Below, one piece after another: positions 49,260-56,017 of a stretch of DNA of 64,000 nt. The notes beneath the pieces were generated by a model. That model did no database searches. It saw nothing but the letters and a program-made list of their open reading frames with translations, and was not told the DNA's origin. Source of the DNA: Luteolibacter rhizosphaerae (GTDB lineage Bacteria > Verrucomicrobiota > Verrucomicrobiia > Verrucomicrobiales > Akkermansiaceae); assembly GCF_025950095.1 (NCBI RefSeq), contig NZ_JAPDDR010000004.1:1-64000 (forward strand), read 5' to 3'. Each line of letters starts with the position of its first letter. Position 1 is the stretch's first letter. The position numbers and the translations under genes are program-made.

Positions 49260-52004
49260 TTATTGTGCATCCTTTTTCCCGATCAGGTCTTCAATGCTGT
49301 GCTGTAGCCGCTCCAAAAGTGCTTCATCCGCCACTTTCTTCCCGTCCGCGGTGGTGACGTAGAAGGTGTCCATCGCGGCTCCTTTTTCCGTCGAGATCCG
49401 TGCATTCGCCGTATTGAGACCGTAGGTGTTGATCGCGTGGAAAAGATCGTGCAGCAGGCCGATGCGGTCCACGGCCTGGATTTCGATCGCGGTGCAGGCC
49501 GGGTGCAGGTCGTTCGAGACATACGCGCGGACCGGGAAGGCCATGCCGTGATCGTCCTTCGGCCGCAGCAGGTTCGGCTTCCGGCGGAAGTAGCGTGCGT
49601 GCTCGTACTTCTCCAGCAGGCCTACCTCCCGCAGCGTGGAGGACAGGCGCTTGCGCAGGCCGAGGTCCGATACCGGCTCGAAGTTCGTCGTGCAGACGCG
49701 GAAGATATCCAGCACCACGGCATCGCTGCGGGTGAAGAAGTCGGCGGAGAGAATGTTCAGCTCCTCCGAGGCGAGCGCGCAGCAGATCTTCTCTAACAGG
49801 AGCGGCCGGTCGTGGGTCGCGATTACGAGTTCCGTGTAGCCCTTCTCGGGCATGTCGAGCCATTGCAGGGAGCAGTCGAAGACGTCTTCGTCCTTCTTCG
49901 GTTCCAGCTTGAGCACGGCCTTCACGTGGGCCGCCACGGAGGCCGCCTCGCGGAAACGGAAGTAGGAGTCCGGCATCCGCTTGAAGTGGTCATCCACCGC
50001 GGGCGCATCCTCGTCCTTGAGCAGATCCTTCACCTGCTGCTTCAGCTCCTTCTTCTCGCCGCGGATGGAAGCGGCATAGCGCTCGCGCCCTTCCTTCAGG
50101 AACACCCGCGTGCTGGAGTGAAGCTGCAGCATCAGAGTCTCCTTCCAGCTCGACCAAGTCTCGGTGTTGGTGCCGTTCGAGTCCGCGTAGCTGAAGAGCA
50201 GCAGCAGATCGAGCCGCTCCTTGGTCTTCACGATCCGCGCGAACTCGGCGACCACATCCGGGTCCTCGATGTTCCGCGTGGTAGCGTAGCGCCAGAAGCT
50301 CAGGTGGTGATCCACCAGGAACATGATCAGCGCCCGCCGCGGGCCATGGACCTGCAGACGGTTGCAAAGCCGCGAGGCGAGCATGGCCGAGCCATCGGTG
50401 TGCTCTCGCACGTTCTCCGCCCGGCCGGTGTCGTGCAAGATCAGGGCGAGATAGAGCGCGTAGGGGTCCTCCGCCTCGTGGAAGAGCCGGCGGTAGACTT
50501 CCTTCCGCGGTTCGTCGGTGCCGACCAGAGCGTCGAGCTCCTCGATGCAGCGCAGGGTGTGTTCGTCAGCAGTATAGCGGTGGAAGAACTCGTGCTGCAC
50601 CAGGCAATCCAGCGCGCCGAATTCCGGCAAATAGCGGCCCAGGAACCCCACCCGGTGCATCTGGCGCAGCGTGCGCGAGACATCCCCCTTGCGCTCCAGG
50701 ATGGCTTGGAATGTCTCGCGATTCGTCTTCGAGTAGCGGAAGGGCCGGTCTACATCCTCGCGGTGCGCCTTGATCAGGCGCCGCATCGGCGGGCTCAGGC
50801 GCAGGTTCCGCAACTGCGTGTGCTGGAAGAGCCGCATCAGGCGATGCGGGTCCTCGGTGAAGATCTCGTTGCTCTGCGGATAGATCCGGCCGTCGCGGGC
50901 GATGAAGCCGTCGAACTCCTCGCGCTTCTTCCGACCCAGCGTGAGGAAAGACTTCAGGCCGGTATCCGCCTGCTCCTGCTGCTCGATCTCGAAGGTTTCC
51001 ATCAGCGAGCCGGTGTGCTGGTAGAGGCTCCGCGTGTGGCGGTAGTAGTCCCGCATGAACTCCTCCGTGCGGCGCAGGATGCTGCGCTGCGGATAGTGGA
51101 AGTTCGTCGCCACCACTCCTTGGAGCCGGAGCGTCAGTTGGTCGTTCGCACGACCCGTCTCGTAGTGCAGCTCGTTGCGCACCCGCATCAGGAAATCGTA
51201 AGCGGCATCGATGCGACGCAGCGCGGTGGCCGTGAGCAGCTTGTCATCCACCAGCTCGCGCAGGTCCGTGGTCCCCCGCTTCACCCGGGTCACCCAGCGG
51301 ATATTGTGGTAATCCCGCATCCCACCGCAGCCTTCCTTCACGTTCGGCTCCTGCAGGAAGACGGTCTTGGAGAATTTCTTGTGACGCGTGCGAAGATCCT
51401 GGCGCCGCAGTTCGAAGAAGGCCTCTTGCCCCTTCTGCACGCACTCCTTCTCGAAGCGGGTCTGAAATTCGGCGAATAGCTTCTTGTCCCCAGCAATCAT
51501 CCGCGCGTCGATCATCGCCGTTTTGTTCTGCGGATCGGCTTTCGATTGCTCCATGCATTCGGCGATCGAGCGGCACGCATGGCCCACCTTGAAGCCCACA
51601 TCCCACATCAGGTACAGGATCTCTTGCACCAGTGCGGACAAGTCCTCCGGCAGCTTGTTCGAAGCCCGCGGCAGCAGGAACAGCAGATCGACGTCCGAAC
51701 CCGGATTCAGGGTCCCGCGGCCGTAACCGCCGATCGCCACCAGCGCCAGCACCGGCGCCTCCTTCCGCTTTGAAAGCGCCAAGTCGAAGAGCGAGCGCAG
51801 CACCACATCCAGCAGCTCCGCCCGCGCCCCCGCGATTTCCAGCCCGCCCGCGCCGGCGCGGTGCCGCAGTTTGATCCGGTGTTCCTCGATCTTCAGGAAG
51901 CGGCGATACAGGGCGATGCGCTCGGCGGGCGAGAGATGACCTTGGACGGCAGGCTTGAGCGCCGTCTTCGCATGCGCTTGTAAGGTTTTAAGATGGGTGG
52001 ACAT
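49260..52004 (-). CDS. glnD: PII uridylyltransferase / uridylyl-removing enzyme
   Basis: 914 residues from ATG 52004; the in-frame ATG at 52124 would add a basic leader crossing the DnaA-box-like cluster. The nucleotidyltransferase domain has GGYGRG (92-97) and GSDVDLL. An HD region follows with LILHDTGRAENVREHTDGS, then two ACT domains at the C-terminus (ELVIATHDRPLLLEKICCALA; IEIQAVDRIGLLHDLFHAINT). It adds or removes UMP on PII proteins in response to glutamine, which makes it the main nitrogen sensor. Length is normal. No PII gene is in the window. Confidence 0.93.
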   Translation of the reverse strand: MSTHLKTLQAHAKTALKPAVQGHLSPAERIALYRRFLKIEEHRIKLRHRAGAGGLEIAGARAELLDVVLRSLFDLALSKRKEAPVLALVAIGGYGRGTLNPGSDVDLLFLLPRASNKLPEDLSALVQEILYLMWDVGFKVGHACRSIAECMEQSKADPQNKTAMIDARMIAGDKKLFAEFQTRFEKECVQKGQEAFFELRRQDLRTRHKKFSKTVFLQEPNVKEGCGGMRDYHNIRWVTRVKRGTTDLRELVDDKLLTATALRRIDAAYDFLMRVRNELHYETGRANDQLTLRLQGVVATNFHYPQRSILRRTEEFMRDYYRHTRSLYQHTGSLMETFEIEQQEQADTGLKSFLTLGRKKREEFDGFIARDGRIYPQSNEIFTEDPHRLMRLFQHTQLRNLRLSPPMRRLIKAHREDVDRPFRYSKTNRETFQAILERKGDVSRTLRQMHRVGFLGRYLPEFGALDCLVQHEFFHRYTADEHTLRCIEELDALVGTDEPRKEVYRRLFHEAEDPYALYLALILHDTGRAENVREHTDGSAMLASRLCNRLQVHGPRRALIMFLVDHHLSFWRYATTRNIEDPDVVAEFARIVKTKERLDLLLLFSYADSNGTNTETWSSWKETLMLQLHSSTRVFLKEGRERYAASIRGEKKELKQQVKDLLKDEDAPAVDDHFKRMPDSYFRFREAASVAAHVKAVLKLEPKKDEDVFDCSLQWLDMPEKGYTELVIATHDRPLLLEKICCALASEELNILSADFFTRSDAVVLDIFRVCTTNFEPVSDLGLRKRLSSTLREVGLLEKYEHARYFRRKPNLLRPKDDHGMAFPVRAYVSNDLHPACTAIEIQAVDRIGLLHDLFHAINTYGLNTANARISTEKGAAMDTFYVTTADGKKVADEALLERLQHSIEDLIGKKDAQ

Positions 52005-52070
52005 CCGCTGCGTGCAGGGTGCGCGGATTTTCGCGGGGGTCAAGGCGGGGAACCACGGAGAGCCCTGCCG

Positions 52071-52102
52071 TGGGGACAAGCTGTGGATAAAATGTGAGCA
52101 AC
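52071..52102. promoter_or_regulatory. DnaA-box-like triplet between glnD and the metzincin gene
   Basis: TGTGGATAA at 52082-52090 is an exact match to the reverse complement of the DnaA box TTATCCACA. On each side, 11-12 bp away, are weaker relatives: TGGGGACAA (52071-52079) and TGTGAGCAA (52094-52102). All have the same orientation and helical spacing. The site lies upstream of the glnD start on the minus strand, so it could regulate glnD or bind DnaA for another reason. Confidence 0.6.
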
Positions 52103-52136
52103 TCCGCCGCCCCCTGATCCTCAAATGGGAATAGCC

Positions 52137-53318
52137 TCACGGCGGGCTCAGCGTCATCCAGTCGATCGGCTCCGCGATTACCGCTGCCCCACCCTCTGAT
52201 TCCCCTGCCGGAATGAAGCTCCCTGCCCCGCCCGAAACCGGGCTGGAATCCACCTTCAGGCGCATGAAACGCCGCCCACCGCCGGAGTTCAGCCGCACCG
52301 AGAGCGTGCTGGCATTATTCGTCACCACCGTGCTCCCGCTGTTTGCCGCGCCTGCCGCCAGCCAAGTCGTCAGGTTGCTGCCGGTTTGGATCTGATAGAC
52401 CAGTCCGTCCGCCACTGCCTGCGCGTTCTTCGTCAGGGTCCAGGTCAGCCCGTTCGCCGCTGCCGCCGGAGCTGGCAGTACGCTCGGCGCATTCGGATTC
52501 AGCCCCAGCATGAATTCGATCACGTTGTCGATCCCGTCCACGTCGTCGTCTCCATCCGGCCCGTTGTCGATGCCGTTGGTCGTGGCCCACTGCTCGTAGT
52601 TCGTGGCAGCCGGCAGCGTCTGTAGGAAGTCGTAGCCATCGGTGCCGTTGTCGTTCGTAAAAACCGTGGTGCGCTGCGCCGTGGTCAGTTGGGAGGTCGT
52701 TCCCCCGGAACTCATCAGGTTCGGCTGGCCGTTCTGCTGCGTGTGGTCCAAACCGAGATTATGGCCGATCTCATGCGCGATCACGCGGGCAATCACATCC
52801 CGCCCGCCCTCGAATGCCGCCAGATTGGCGCCCACGTGCATGGTAATGCCGTTACCATCAATGTAGGCCAGACCGTTCGCGGTGTTGTCGCTCGTCTGCT
52901 GGAAGCCCGGAACGATCTCGATGAAGAACATGTTGATCACCAACGCGTTCGAACTCTTCGGCGGGGCCCCGGCGCCGCTGTTGATCGTCCCGAGATGGGC
53001 GGTCGGACGAGGGCTCGAGCTGTAGTTGTTTGCCGGATCGCTGAAAGCGAAGTTGTTCACATACTGCGTGAAGGGTAGCCAATCGATCCGCACCCCCGCC
53101 TGCGCCCAGATCCGGTTGATCTGCTCCTTGATGTAGGTGGACTGTGCCGTATCACCCAGAATCGTCGCCGCTGTCCCGTCGGTTTTGAAAACTTGGATCG
53201 GCTGGATCTGCACCCTGCGCGTGATCGTCATCGGGGCGTTCACGATCACCTCTGCAGCGGCAGAGTGAACGAGACCCGCCGCGACCAAGCAGCGGGCGAT
53301 CAAAAGCGGGAAGGGCAT
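52137..53318 (-). CDS. Secreted metzincin-type zinc metalloprotease
   Basis: 393 residues from ATG 53318, which begins a signal peptide (MPFPLLIARCLVAAGLVHSAAA). The zinc motif is HEIGHNLGLDH (HExxHxxGxxH), followed by a possible Met-turn segment (PNLMSS). The C-terminal part has an acidic calcium-type run (GPDGDDDVDGIDNVIEFMLGLNP) and a surface-type beta domain, a layout frequent in verrucomicrobial exported proteins. The 5' side of the gene faces the larger DnaA-box-like cluster. The peptide substrate is unknown. Confidence 0.82.
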   Translation of the reverse strand: MPFPLLIARCLVAAGLVHSAAAEVIVNAPMTITRRVQIQPIQVFKTDGTAATILGDTAQSTYIKEQINRIWAQAGVRIDWLPFTQYVNNFAFSDPANNYSSSPRPTAHLGTINSGAGAPPKSSNALVINMFFIEIVPGFQQTSDNTANGLAYIDGNGITMHVGANLAAFEGGRDVIARVIAHEIGHNLGLDHTQQNGQPNLMSSGGTTSQLTTAQRTTVFTNDNGTDGYDFLQTLPAATNYEQWATTNGIDNGPDGDDDVDGIDNVIEFMLGLNPNAPSVLPAPAAAANGLTWTLTKNAQAVADGLVYQIQTGSNLTTWLAAGAANSGSTVVTNNASTLSVRLNSGGGRRFMRLKVDSSPVSGGAGSFIPAGESEGGAAVIAEPIDWMTLSPP

Positions 53319-53398
53319 CTTAGAATTCAAGGCCCCGCTACTATTCGGATTTCGGCAATCTTCAAGCCCACAGACCCCGGTCCGGAATTGTGCGTAGC

Positions 53399-53490
53399 TT
53401 GTGAACAACTCCCCGCGAATCCCTGTGAACAATCATGCGATAAGCTGTGAACAAGTCGCTTGTGAACAACGGTCAACAACTTGTGAACAA
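53399..53490 (+). repeat. Five direct repeats TGTGAACAA (DnaA-box-like / iteron-like)
   Basis: Identical 9-mers at 53400-53408, 53424-53432, 53446-53454, 53461-53469 and 53482-53490, all in one orientation, with starts 24, 22, 15 and 21 bp apart. The reverse complement TTGTTCACA differs by one base from TTGTCCACA, the DnaA box of several high-GC bacteria. A partial copy (GTCAACAAC) lies at 53472-53480. The 260-base gap 53319-53578 holds no gene apart from this array. Nearby DNA shows no obvious AT-rich unwinding element. Confidence 0.8.
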
Positions 53491-53578
53491 GCTCTCGGCT
53501 GGCTGGACCTCAAGCGGCACCGGTTAAAAACCCGGAAGGAGTGGACAAGCCCCCGCGTCACGGGCACAAGCCGCCCCT

Positions 53579-53875
53579 GTGAAGAAGACCTTTCCCTTGG
53601 TGCAACCGGATCGTCCCGTCGAGCGGCAGCTCGATGCGATCAAACACGAGCTCCGGAAGTATTTGAAACGGGAGCGCCGCAAGCCCTTGCCCGAAGGCGT
53701 GGACTTCTGGGACTTCGATTGTCAGGTGGGGAAGGGGGACTCCGCCCCCGAACCGAAGCACTCCGGCGATCTTGAGAAGGCCATTGAGGAAGCTGCCAAG
53801 GAAGGTGCCCTCTCGGTCTTCGTCGCCATCCAGTCCAAGCCGGGCAAGCGTACGAAGAAAGAAAAGGAAGCCTGA
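53579..53875 (+). CDS. DUF6172-type small protein
   Basis: 98 residues with a GTG start at 53579. The sequence MKKTFPLVQPDRPVERQLDAIKHELRKYLKRERRK, then LPEGVDFWDFDCQVG, is the pattern I recall for DUF6172, a short basic protein family of unknown role. The C-terminus is Lys-rich. It lies directly after the TGTGAACAA array. Its stop TGA and the stop of the opposing protease gene form the palindrome TGATCA with no base between the two genes. Confidence 0.72.
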   Translation: MKKTFPLVQPDRPVERQLDAIKHELRKYLKRERRKPLPEGVDFWDFDCQVGKGDSAPEPKHSGDLEKAIEEAAKEGALSVFVAIQSKPGKRTKKEKEA

Positions 53876-56017
53876 TCAGATCTCCCGCTGCGTCGCCTCG
53901 ACCAAGTCGCCCAGCACTGCCATTGCCTCGCGTTTCCACGGGTCCAGCCCGCTCGGCCAAGCCGGGCCCGGTCGCTTCTCACGCGCAGCGATCGCACCCA
54001 CCTGGAGTCCGGCCCCGCTCTTCAGATCCGCCAGAGTGAGCCGATGGATCGCGAGCTTCGCGCCGTCTTCCTCCGCCATGCGCCCGAAGCGCCCCCGCCG
54101 CTCCTCCTCCCGCTGCCGGGCCGTGGCGCTCTCCTGCGCCATCTCCTTCCGCCGCTCGTCCAGATTCATGCTCACTTGGTTCGCCGCCAGCCGCTGCTTC
54201 ATCCGGGCGGCATCCTCCCGCAGGTAGGCGAAGTCCTGATCCGCGGCCACCCGTGCGGCGCTCTTCCCGGTGATCTCCGGCAGGAATAGTCCCGCCCGCT
54301 CCAGCGGCCGGAAGCCATGCGCCGGCGCGATCCGGTCCTGCCCCAGCGCATGGTCCAGATCGCCCTCGCCCATCTCATGGCCATCGGCCAAGCCGGGCAG
54401 CACGATGTCCGGAATCACCCCGCGATTTTGCGTCGAAAGCCCGGAAGGCCGGTAGAACTTCTGCACCGTCAGCCGCAGCGCCCCGGCCCCCTTGCGCGGC
54501 GAAAAGAAGGGCAGGCTCTCCCCGAGATCCTTGATCGTCTGCACCGTGCCCTTCCCGAAGGTCGCGGCCTTCCCCACGATCACCGCCCGGTTGTCGTCCT
54601 GCAGCGCCCCGGCGAAGATCTCGCTGGCGGAGGCGCTGCCGCGATCGGTCAGCACCACCAGCGGTCCATCGAAGAGCGGCTCAGGGAAAGTCGAATCCAG
54701 GATGATCGTCTTGCCGAAGCCGTCCTTCACCTGGGTCACCGGCGCCTTGCCGGTGAACAAGCCCGTCATCCGCTGTGCCTCGGCCAAGGAGCCGCCGCCA
54801 TTGCCACGCAGGTCAATCAGCAGGCCATCGATTCTTTCCTGCTTCAGCCGCAGGATCAGCTCTTCCACATCGCGCGAGCAGGAGGTCTGCTCCTTCTCGA
54901 AGTCGCGGTAGAAGCCGGGCAGCAGGATGTAGCCCAGCCTGCGCTCGCCTCCCGCATCCTTCACGCGGATGAGTTGCGCGCTGGCCAAGCTCTCTTCCAC
55001 CGGAACCTGTCCGCGCAGCAGAGACACCTCCGTCATGCCCCCGCCATCCGCGCCAGCCACCTTCAGGCTCACCGGCGTGCCCGCCTTCCCGCGGATCAGC
55101 TCGGACACCCGGGCACTGCTCATGAAGAGGATCTCCACCGGCTCGCGTGGCCCCTCGGAGTCCGGATCGATCTCCATCACCCGGTCGCCCGCATGCAGCC
55201 CGCCAAGGAGATCCGCCGGACCTTTCGGGAAAATTCCGCGGATCACCGTGGGGCCGCCGGGGTCCGCTTGGATCGAGACGCCGATCCCATTGAGCTCGTT
55301 GCGCATCTCCTCGTTGAAGAGCTCCATATCCCGTTCACTCATGTACTGCGTGTGCGGATCGAAGGACCGGGCGATCGCACGCAGGAATCCGGCCGCCATC
55401 TTGTCCGGACTGCTATCCGCCACCACGTCCGCCCGGAGCCGCCGATAGCGCGCGGCAAGCTTGGCTTCAGGGCTATCCGTTTCGCTTTGGGCGGCGGGCT
55501 GCTCGCGCCGCAGGATCTCCGCCAGCAGCGATTCCTTCACCTCCTGTTGCCAGATCGTCATGGCCTCCGCCTCATCCTTCGGCCATGCCGCATCTTTCCG
55601 GCTCGCGGGGATGATCTCCTGCAAGCTGAAGTCGAAGTCAGGCTCGGCCAGCAAACGCTCGGCTTCGGCGATGCGTGCATCCACCCTCGCGACGAAGGTT
55701 CGCGAGATCTCCTCCGCAGCACGCATGCAGTCGCCTTTCATCAATAGATCATCCAGCGTGTCGCCATAGTCGCGCTCGAAGCGGCCGATGTCTTCGCGCG
55801 TGAAGTAGACCTTACCGGGATCGAGCGACTTCAGATAGCTATCAAGGAAACGCGGGCTCAGCTTCGAGAAGGGCAGGCGCGAGAAGTGCCCGTTCTGCAG
55901 CGCGATTGCCATCCACTTGCCCACCTCGTCGGGATCCGCCTGATCCGTGGGAGCAGCAGCGGAAGGACATGCGAGTGCGACGCAGAACAGGGCGAGGATA
56001 CGGGTGCGTGGAGTCAT
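53876..56017 (-). CDS. prc: C-terminal processing (tail-specific) protease, S41 family
   Basis: 713 residues from ATG 56017; a TTG at 56038 is the alternative. The signal peptide is TRILALFCVALACPSAAA. A helical N-terminal domain precedes a PDZ domain (NGIGVSIQADPGGPTVIRGIFPKGPADLLGGLHAGD). The catalytic core has TDRGSASASE (first Ser at 461) and the Lys in ATFGKGTVQ. The extended C-terminal domain fits Prc/Tsp rather than short CtpA enzymes. It degrades periplasmic proteins and may trim penicillin-binding proteins or lipoproteins. The gene is monocistronic by position. Confidence 0.9.
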   Translation of the reverse strand: MTPRTRILALFCVALACPSAAAPTDQADPDEVGKWMAIALQNGHFSRLPFSKLSPRFLDSYLKSLDPGKVYFTREDIGRFERDYGDTLDDLLMKGDCMRAAEEISRTFVARVDARIAEAERLLAEPDFDFSLQEIIPASRKDAAWPKDEAEAMTIWQQEVKESLLAEILRREQPAAQSETDSPEAKLAARYRRLRADVVADSSPDKMAAGFLRAIARSFDPHTQYMSERDMELFNEEMRNELNGIGVSIQADPGGPTVIRGIFPKGPADLLGGLHAGDRVMEIDPDSEGPREPVEILFMSSARVSELIRGKAGTPVSLKVAGADGGGMTEVSLLRGQVPVEESLASAQLIRVKDAGGERRLGYILLPGFYRDFEKEQTSCSRDVEELILRLKQERIDGLLIDLRGNGGGSLAEAQRMTGLFTGKAPVTQVKDGFGKTIILDSTFPEPLFDGPLVVLTDRGSASASEIFAGALQDDNRAVIVGKAATFGKGTVQTIKDLGESLPFFSPRKGAGALRLTVQKFYRPSGLSTQNRGVIPDIVLPGLADGHEMGEGDLDHALGQDRIAPAHGFRPLERAGLFLPEITGKSAARVAADQDFAYLREDAARMKQRLAANQVSMNLDERRKEMAQESATARQREEERRGRFGRMAEEDGAKLAIHRLTLADLKSGAGLQVGAIAAREKRPGPAWPSGLDPWKREAMAVLGDLVEATQREI

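Follow-up and report, generated by a model that had tools for sequence, protein, structure and literature searches.

The window, by which we mean the whole 64,000-nt stretch of DNA that was analysed, lies on contig C4 of a Luteolibacter genome of 6.23 Mb in 31 contigs (G000, hereafter the own genome). Between a gene for a DUF6172 protein and a divergent metallopeptidase gene it carries five exact copies of the 9-mer TGTGAACAA, all on the forward strand (Table 1). The first-pass annotation had reported five identical words in one orientation within 91 bp, with start-to-start spacings of 24, 22, 15 and 21, and all of them were recovered at 53400-53490. It had also placed them in a gene-free gap of 260 bp, which holds (53319-53578) with the start codons that we assumed, an ATG at 53316-53318 for the metallopeptidase, giving by eye a signal-peptide-like start, and the GTG at 53579 for DUF6172. 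The spacers between the words measure 15, 13, 6 and 12 bases and are mutually dissimilar, so the array did not arise by the copying of a longer unit, and its words were kept or gained individually. GC content is 46% in the array and 55% in the gap, on a contig stretch of about 63%. The six neighbouring proteins that we scanned are of chromosomal types, including glnD, a tail-specific protease and a sigma factor.

Table 1. Features of the array region, in coordinates of the window
Feature	Coordinates	Strand	Remarks
glnD (PII uridylyltransferase)	49260..52004	-	PF08335; ATG at about 52004, placed by eye
Single TTATCCACA	52082..52090	-	Between the inferred GlnD start and the metallopeptidase end
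Reprolysin-like metallopeptidase gene	52137..53318	-	PF13583, E 4.6e-08; PF13582, E 3e-06; divergent from DUF6172
Isolated TTGTTCACA	53053..53061	+	Within the metallopeptidase gene; relative G004 has TAGTTCACA in its similar coding stretch
Candidate DnaA-box cluster, five boxes	53400..53490	- (TTGTTCACA; TGTGAACAA on +)	All parallel; 53400-53408, 53424-53432, 53446-53454, 53461-53469, 53482-53490
Promoter-like element TGGACA-N17-CACAAG	53542..53570	+	8 bases before the DUF6172 GTG; conserved
DUF6172 protein gene, 98 aa	53579..53875	+	PF19669, E 1.7e-30; GTG start

The promoter-like element ahead of DUF6172 recurs in all 12 DUF6172 genes of the genus, with TGGACA or TCGACA, a spacer of 17 bases (16 in G013) and CACAAG or a one-base variant of it, and in each of the 12 it ends 7-8 bases ahead of the start codon. 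This short distance suggests a leaderless message. In the window the element lies 51 bp from the end of the array, and the array is 82-172 bp from the metallopeptidase start. A scan for the sigma-70 consensus and for terminators found nothing, and an Rfam scan of 51900-54100 returned one match, far below its gathering score. The DUF6172 protein has no sequence relative in the PDB at E up to 1, a search of open-licence papers found none that mentions DUF6172, and we know of no link between DUF6172 and DnaA.

The repeated word as a probable DnaA box of the genus

DnaA boxes follow the degenerate consensus TTRTNCACA. The first-pass annotation had described the word as one base away from the box TTGTCCACA, which is correct, yet its reverse complement, TTGTTCACA, matches the degenerate consensus fully. 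Seven perfect TTRTNCACA were observed in the window against 0.74 expected from shuffles, and two of the seven fall outside the array, at 52082 (-) and 53053 (+), the latter probably being coincidental. Over the own genome TGTGNAYAA occurs 74 times, compared with 28 for a reversed-pattern control. When 74 sites were placed randomly 20,000 times, a span the size of the array never held more than three sites, and held three once, so the density is far above chance, as had been claimed. Pairs of TGTGAACAA 3-30 bases apart number four in the own genome, all in the array. Same-strand TGTGNAYAA 3-33 bases apart were found at two places, the array and a stretch upstream of dnaB; looser groups of boxes are at C4:495590/495645 and, with three boxes, on contig C12. 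The many similar clusters that the first-pass annotation would have counted against its proposal were not encountered in this genome-wide search. The two boxes at C4:495590-495653 and four boxes at L104:6827-6906 of relative G004 lie upstream or at the start of NAD(P)-binding proteins that by eye resemble each other.

Three comparisons, of the region upstream of dnaB, of a conserved three-box element and of the flanks of the boxes, indicate that the genus uses TTGTTCACA as a DnaA box. The own genome carries six perfect boxes ahead of dnaB, all parallel, of which four read TTATTCACA and two TTGTTCACA (C4:143643-143852, -700..-499); they sit between rsfS and an ORF of 121 aa, without a Pfam match, that comes before dnaB. 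At least one perfect TTRTNCACA on the dnaB strand was found upstream of the gene in 16 of 17 genomes of the genus, the own genome included, and at -163..-64 in 13, where chance would give about 0.02 boxes per 1500 bp at the site density of G000 and G004; G012 has no perfect box on that strand upstream of dnaB. The count covers 17 of the 18 genomes, G015 with 5 nt of upstream sequence being left out, and 1500 bp in each, or 300 in G007 and 810 in G011. The dnaB-upstream boxes share with the array the same words and the parallel arrangement, and differ from it in their presence in nearly every genome, the array being nearly private. DnaA control of the helicase gene dnaB through these boxes is possible. 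As oriC, the dnaB cluster (six boxes, on the same contig and 90 kb from the window) was rejected, since many genomes have only one box there and C4 has neither a lasting skew switch nor parS. In four of 12 genomes (G006, G011, G012 and G014) DUF6172 is convergent with dnaB at a distance of 0.4-1.7 kb downstream, on the far side of that gene from the dnaB boxes.

The three-box element (C12:101043-101395 in the own genome) occurs once in each of 11 of the 18 genus genomes, and never with the reversed pattern. Its central box was part of the search pattern and is present by construction; a (-) box at +87..+110 accompanies it in all 11 matched genomes, and a (-) box at -231..-244 in nine of them. 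These positions are fixed, with TTGTTCACA at one or more of the three in five of the 11 genomes and TTATTCACA elsewhere. By eye, an AT-rich stretch precedes the central box in most copies.

For the flanks, 49 boxes of relatives gave the consensus CAAGTTRTTCACAA; they came from the dnaB set (13 of 18 loci, omitting the own genome, G012, G015, and G013 and G017 with C for T) and from the three-box element set (10 of 11). The array boxes have a mean flank score of -0.39 against -4.36 for 33 isolated control words (one-sided P 0.026), a difference of which coding bias may explain part, since the control words are mostly in reading frames. Three of the five array boxes score above 32 of the 33 control words and two are poor (-7.55 and -1.97). 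The same test gave P 0.0002 for the own dnaB boxes and P 0.0025 for the own three-box element. As controls we used 15 words of G000 (omitting the dnaB-upstream locus, the C4:495590-495653 locus and the word at 53053), 10 of 22 from G004 and 8 of 25 from G010. The conserved boxes are more often TTATTCACA, and all five of the array are TTGTTCACA. The organism's own DnaA has the usual domains (PF08299, E 5.5e-30) and a DNA-binding signature, GGRDHGTVIHACKK, that we take to be near-canonical. Comparison of sequences thereby lends support to the DnaA link that the first-pass annotation had drawn for the array words.

The array in relatives and the location of the origin

DUF6172 is present in 12 of the 18 genus genomes. 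We scanned 350 bp upstream of the gene in the other 11, allowing one mismatch; ten have no perfect box and G010 has two TTGTTCACA, at -123 and -60. Absence from all close relatives, an outcome that the first-pass annotation had named as speaking against it, is thus nearly what we found, G010 being the exception. In that genome glnD is the direct divergent neighbour of DUF6172, and tblastn did not find the metallopeptidase in the 10 kb at the DUF6172 locus; this associates the boxes with the DUF6172 side. G004 has both glnD and the metallopeptidase, placed as they are in the window, and has no box there. Common to G004 and the own genome are GGTCCGGAATTG and, further on, AGTGGACAA, with 149 bp between them in the own genome, array included, versus 26 bp in G004, so that the array was either gained in the line of the own genome or lost in G004.

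In a wider collection of genome contigs, 76 of the best 80 of 332 DUF6172 loci have no perfect box within 400 bp (a few of the 80 have less than 400 bp upstream), three have one box and one, the G010 contig, has two; on these counts DUF6172 was rejected as a generally DnaA-linked gene. A survey of the family found three same-strand boxes in a row in 13 of 260 genomes, and the reversed control matched in one (G217). Among the 13, G053 has a longer repeated unit that by eye is probably coding, the arrays lie upstream of dnaB in the own genome and G145 and beside a Na/H exchanger gene in G183 and G209, and the remaining ones are in G105, G117, G176 and G178, apart from four beside ribD (G045, G050, G084 and G217, from two other genera). 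The ribD array of G045 has two parS-like sites, with 1 mismatch each, within 0.9 kb of it, and may therefore mark an origin. The ribD stretches of G050, G084 and G217 have no parS within 2 mismatches, and a 20-kb ribD stretch of G004 has no perfect TTRTNCACA.

That the array itself is a replication origin, main or secondary, is very unlikely. Dense DnaA boxes in a gap of lowered GC content would suit such a role. An oriC is expected to keep its place and architecture in relatives, and the array has no conserved counterpart there, ten of the 11 DUF6172-bearing relatives having no perfect box and one having two. The first-pass annotation had proposed that a position near a skew minimum would favour an origin; in 10-kb intervals of C4 the skew changes sign locally, with -0.068 at 50-60 kb flanked by +0.027 and +0.045, a lasting switch is absent, and no parS within 2 mismatches was found on this contig. 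Further evidence against an origin at the array comes from relative G003, where skew and parS point near mnmG. Cumulative skew over 2.28-2.70 Mb of that genome has its minimum at about 2.48 Mb, where a wider sample also turns from negative to positive, and four parS-like sites (2, 1, 2 and 0 mismatches; C1:2415637-2417390), in and beside mnmG, lie about 65 kb from the minimum; the mnmG region is the likely origin region of G003. The scan of 2.28-2.70 Mb found scattered perfect boxes only, and nowhere five one-mismatch sites within 300 bp; this origin region is therefore not marked by a DnaA-box cluster. Origins do not always lie at dnaA, according to PMC10197239.

The three-box element was also considered as oriC, as suggested by its fixed geometry, single copy and AT-rich stretch, and this was set back by the skew and parS of G003. 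The G003 copy is at 4.42 Mb, 1.9 Mb from the indicated origin, so that the element is probably a control site. This is the one genome in which the distance was checked, and the copy is degenerate, with 2 mismatches, an outer box missing and no AT-rich stretch, so that its position may not settle the matter for other genomes. In G004 the three-box element is at 5.07 Mb and the skew turns near 2.0-2.2 Mb; the 46 skew samples of this genome are mostly negative to 2.0 Mb and mostly positive at 2.2-6.2 Mb, a fuzzy picture in which one or the other measure departs from this trend at about 0.4, 1.4, 1.6, 2.4, 2.5, 2.9, 3.1-3.5, 3.8, 4.4, 5.1 and 5.2 Mb. On C12 no skew switch was seen over 158 of the 164 kb, and a parS search allowing 2 mismatches found none. 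A conserved DnaA control site is more likely than an origin for the three-box element, and it is perhaps a conserved datA- or DARS-like site. Its origin status has no bearing on the word as a DnaA box or on the place of the array.

Proposed role of the array and competing explanations

The reading that we prefer, with a probability of about 0.6, is that the array is a chromosomal DnaA-box cluster outside any recognised origin that acts on the DUF6172 promoter and secondarily titrates DnaA. Taken singly, both parts are tentative, promoter control being put slightly ahead of pure titration. DnaA would bind the five parallel boxes cooperatively and, bound 51 bp upstream of the DUF6172 element, would alter transcription of one or both divergent genes, the change following the level or the nucleotide state of DnaA. 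The DUF6172 promoter would be affected first, since G010 has boxes there without the metallopeptidase. The cluster would also hold several DnaA molecules, and the resulting titration, a side effect in this scheme, may be the main effect. Two of the roles envisaged in the first-pass annotation, a DnaA-controlled promoter and a titration site, are kept here with the support of the word comparison.

A less probable explanation is a locus like datA or the DnaA-box clusters (DBCs) of Bacillus subtilis that controls initiation, at which DnaA would be sequestered or its nucleotide switched and the flanking genes would be bystanders. The datA locus stimulates hydrolysis of DnaA-ATP, and its deletion leads to over-initiation. 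A group of five boxes within 91 bp that lies at no recognised origin fits this explanation, and PMC5295017 describes five high-affinity boxes in Escherichia coli datA and six extra-origin clusters in B. subtilis. The place of the array, however, is not conserved, whereas the control regions of E. coli are reported to be (PMC4585315), and a role of this kind would suit the conserved three-box element better. The DARS label, which the first-pass annotation had also offered, fails on geometry, since in the three-box DARS core described in PMC5742627 box I points the opposite way from boxes II and III and in the array all five boxes are parallel.

We consider it unlikely that the words form an operator array of another regulator with a DnaA-box-like site. 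Such a regulator could account for the imperfect inverted repeat in the 10-mer TTGTGAACAA (TTGT-GA-ACAA), which is complete in three of the five copies, and for the identity of the five words, down to a G where the conserved boxes more often have A. However, the same word is found at conserved DnaA-type places, mixed with TTATTCACA at dnaB, and the genome has no second close word pair, although the single sites of a regulon would be invisible to that search. Plasmid-type iterons, or the remnant of an integrated plasmid, are as improbable as an origin. They would explain why words are repeated directly in a gap where no gene is recognised. Iterons are regularly spaced direct repeats next to a rep gene, but the spacings (24, 22, 15 and 21) are irregular, the spacers are dissimilar, the scanned neighbours are chromosomal-type and the word also stands upstream of dnaB. 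The first-pass annotation, which had raised the iterons, had itself stated that no rep or dnaA gene is near; indeed no rep-type domain was found in the six scanned neighbours, and dnaA lies on the contig of the array at a distance of 234 kb.

Significance and comparison with known systems

For the genus as a whole, it is conceivable, if doubtful, that DnaA acts as a transcription factor of dnaB and binds the three-box control element, and that the array is a newly gained dense target for DUF6172 and/or the metallopeptidase. If this were true, the state of replication would feed into gene expression, in a lineage for which we found no described DnaA regulon in the open-licence literature. Among open-licence papers, judged by title or abstract start, none dealt with DnaA boxes in Verrucomicrobia, a search for the Akkermansia replication origin and DnaA likewise gave none on such boxes, and no paper was found on TTGTTCACA with DnaA. 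The analysis yields a DnaA-box consensus for the genus (CAAGTTRTTCACAA) and a conserved three-box element that is probably not an origin, together with a box ahead of dnaB that almost all the genomes have and a single dense cluster that is private.

Regulation by DnaA at sites other than oriC is understood from work in a few model bacteria. An extra-origin cluster is taken to have at least three boxes of the organism's own consensus in a short stretch, and the array has five perfect ones in 91 bp; from its sequence it is predicted to belong to this known class. In B. subtilis joint loss of the six DBCs leads to early initiation (PMC5295017), and full activation of sda requires the DnaA boxes in its promoter (PMC5295017, PMC4447404). 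The array resembles these in having several candidate DnaA boxes probably away from the origin, and differs from them in belonging to another phylum and in consisting of five identical parallel words beside DUF6172 and the metallopeptidase. E. coli datA also has five DnaA boxes, of high affinity, in an intergenic position outside oriC (PMC5295017, PMC5742627). Its core is situated downstream of genes and includes an IHF site between the essential boxes, whereas the array lies between divergent genes at a place that is not conserved. DARS1 (101 bp) and DARS2 of E. coli are, like the array, short DnaA-box clusters, and are set apart from its single orientation by their opposed box I (PMC5742627).
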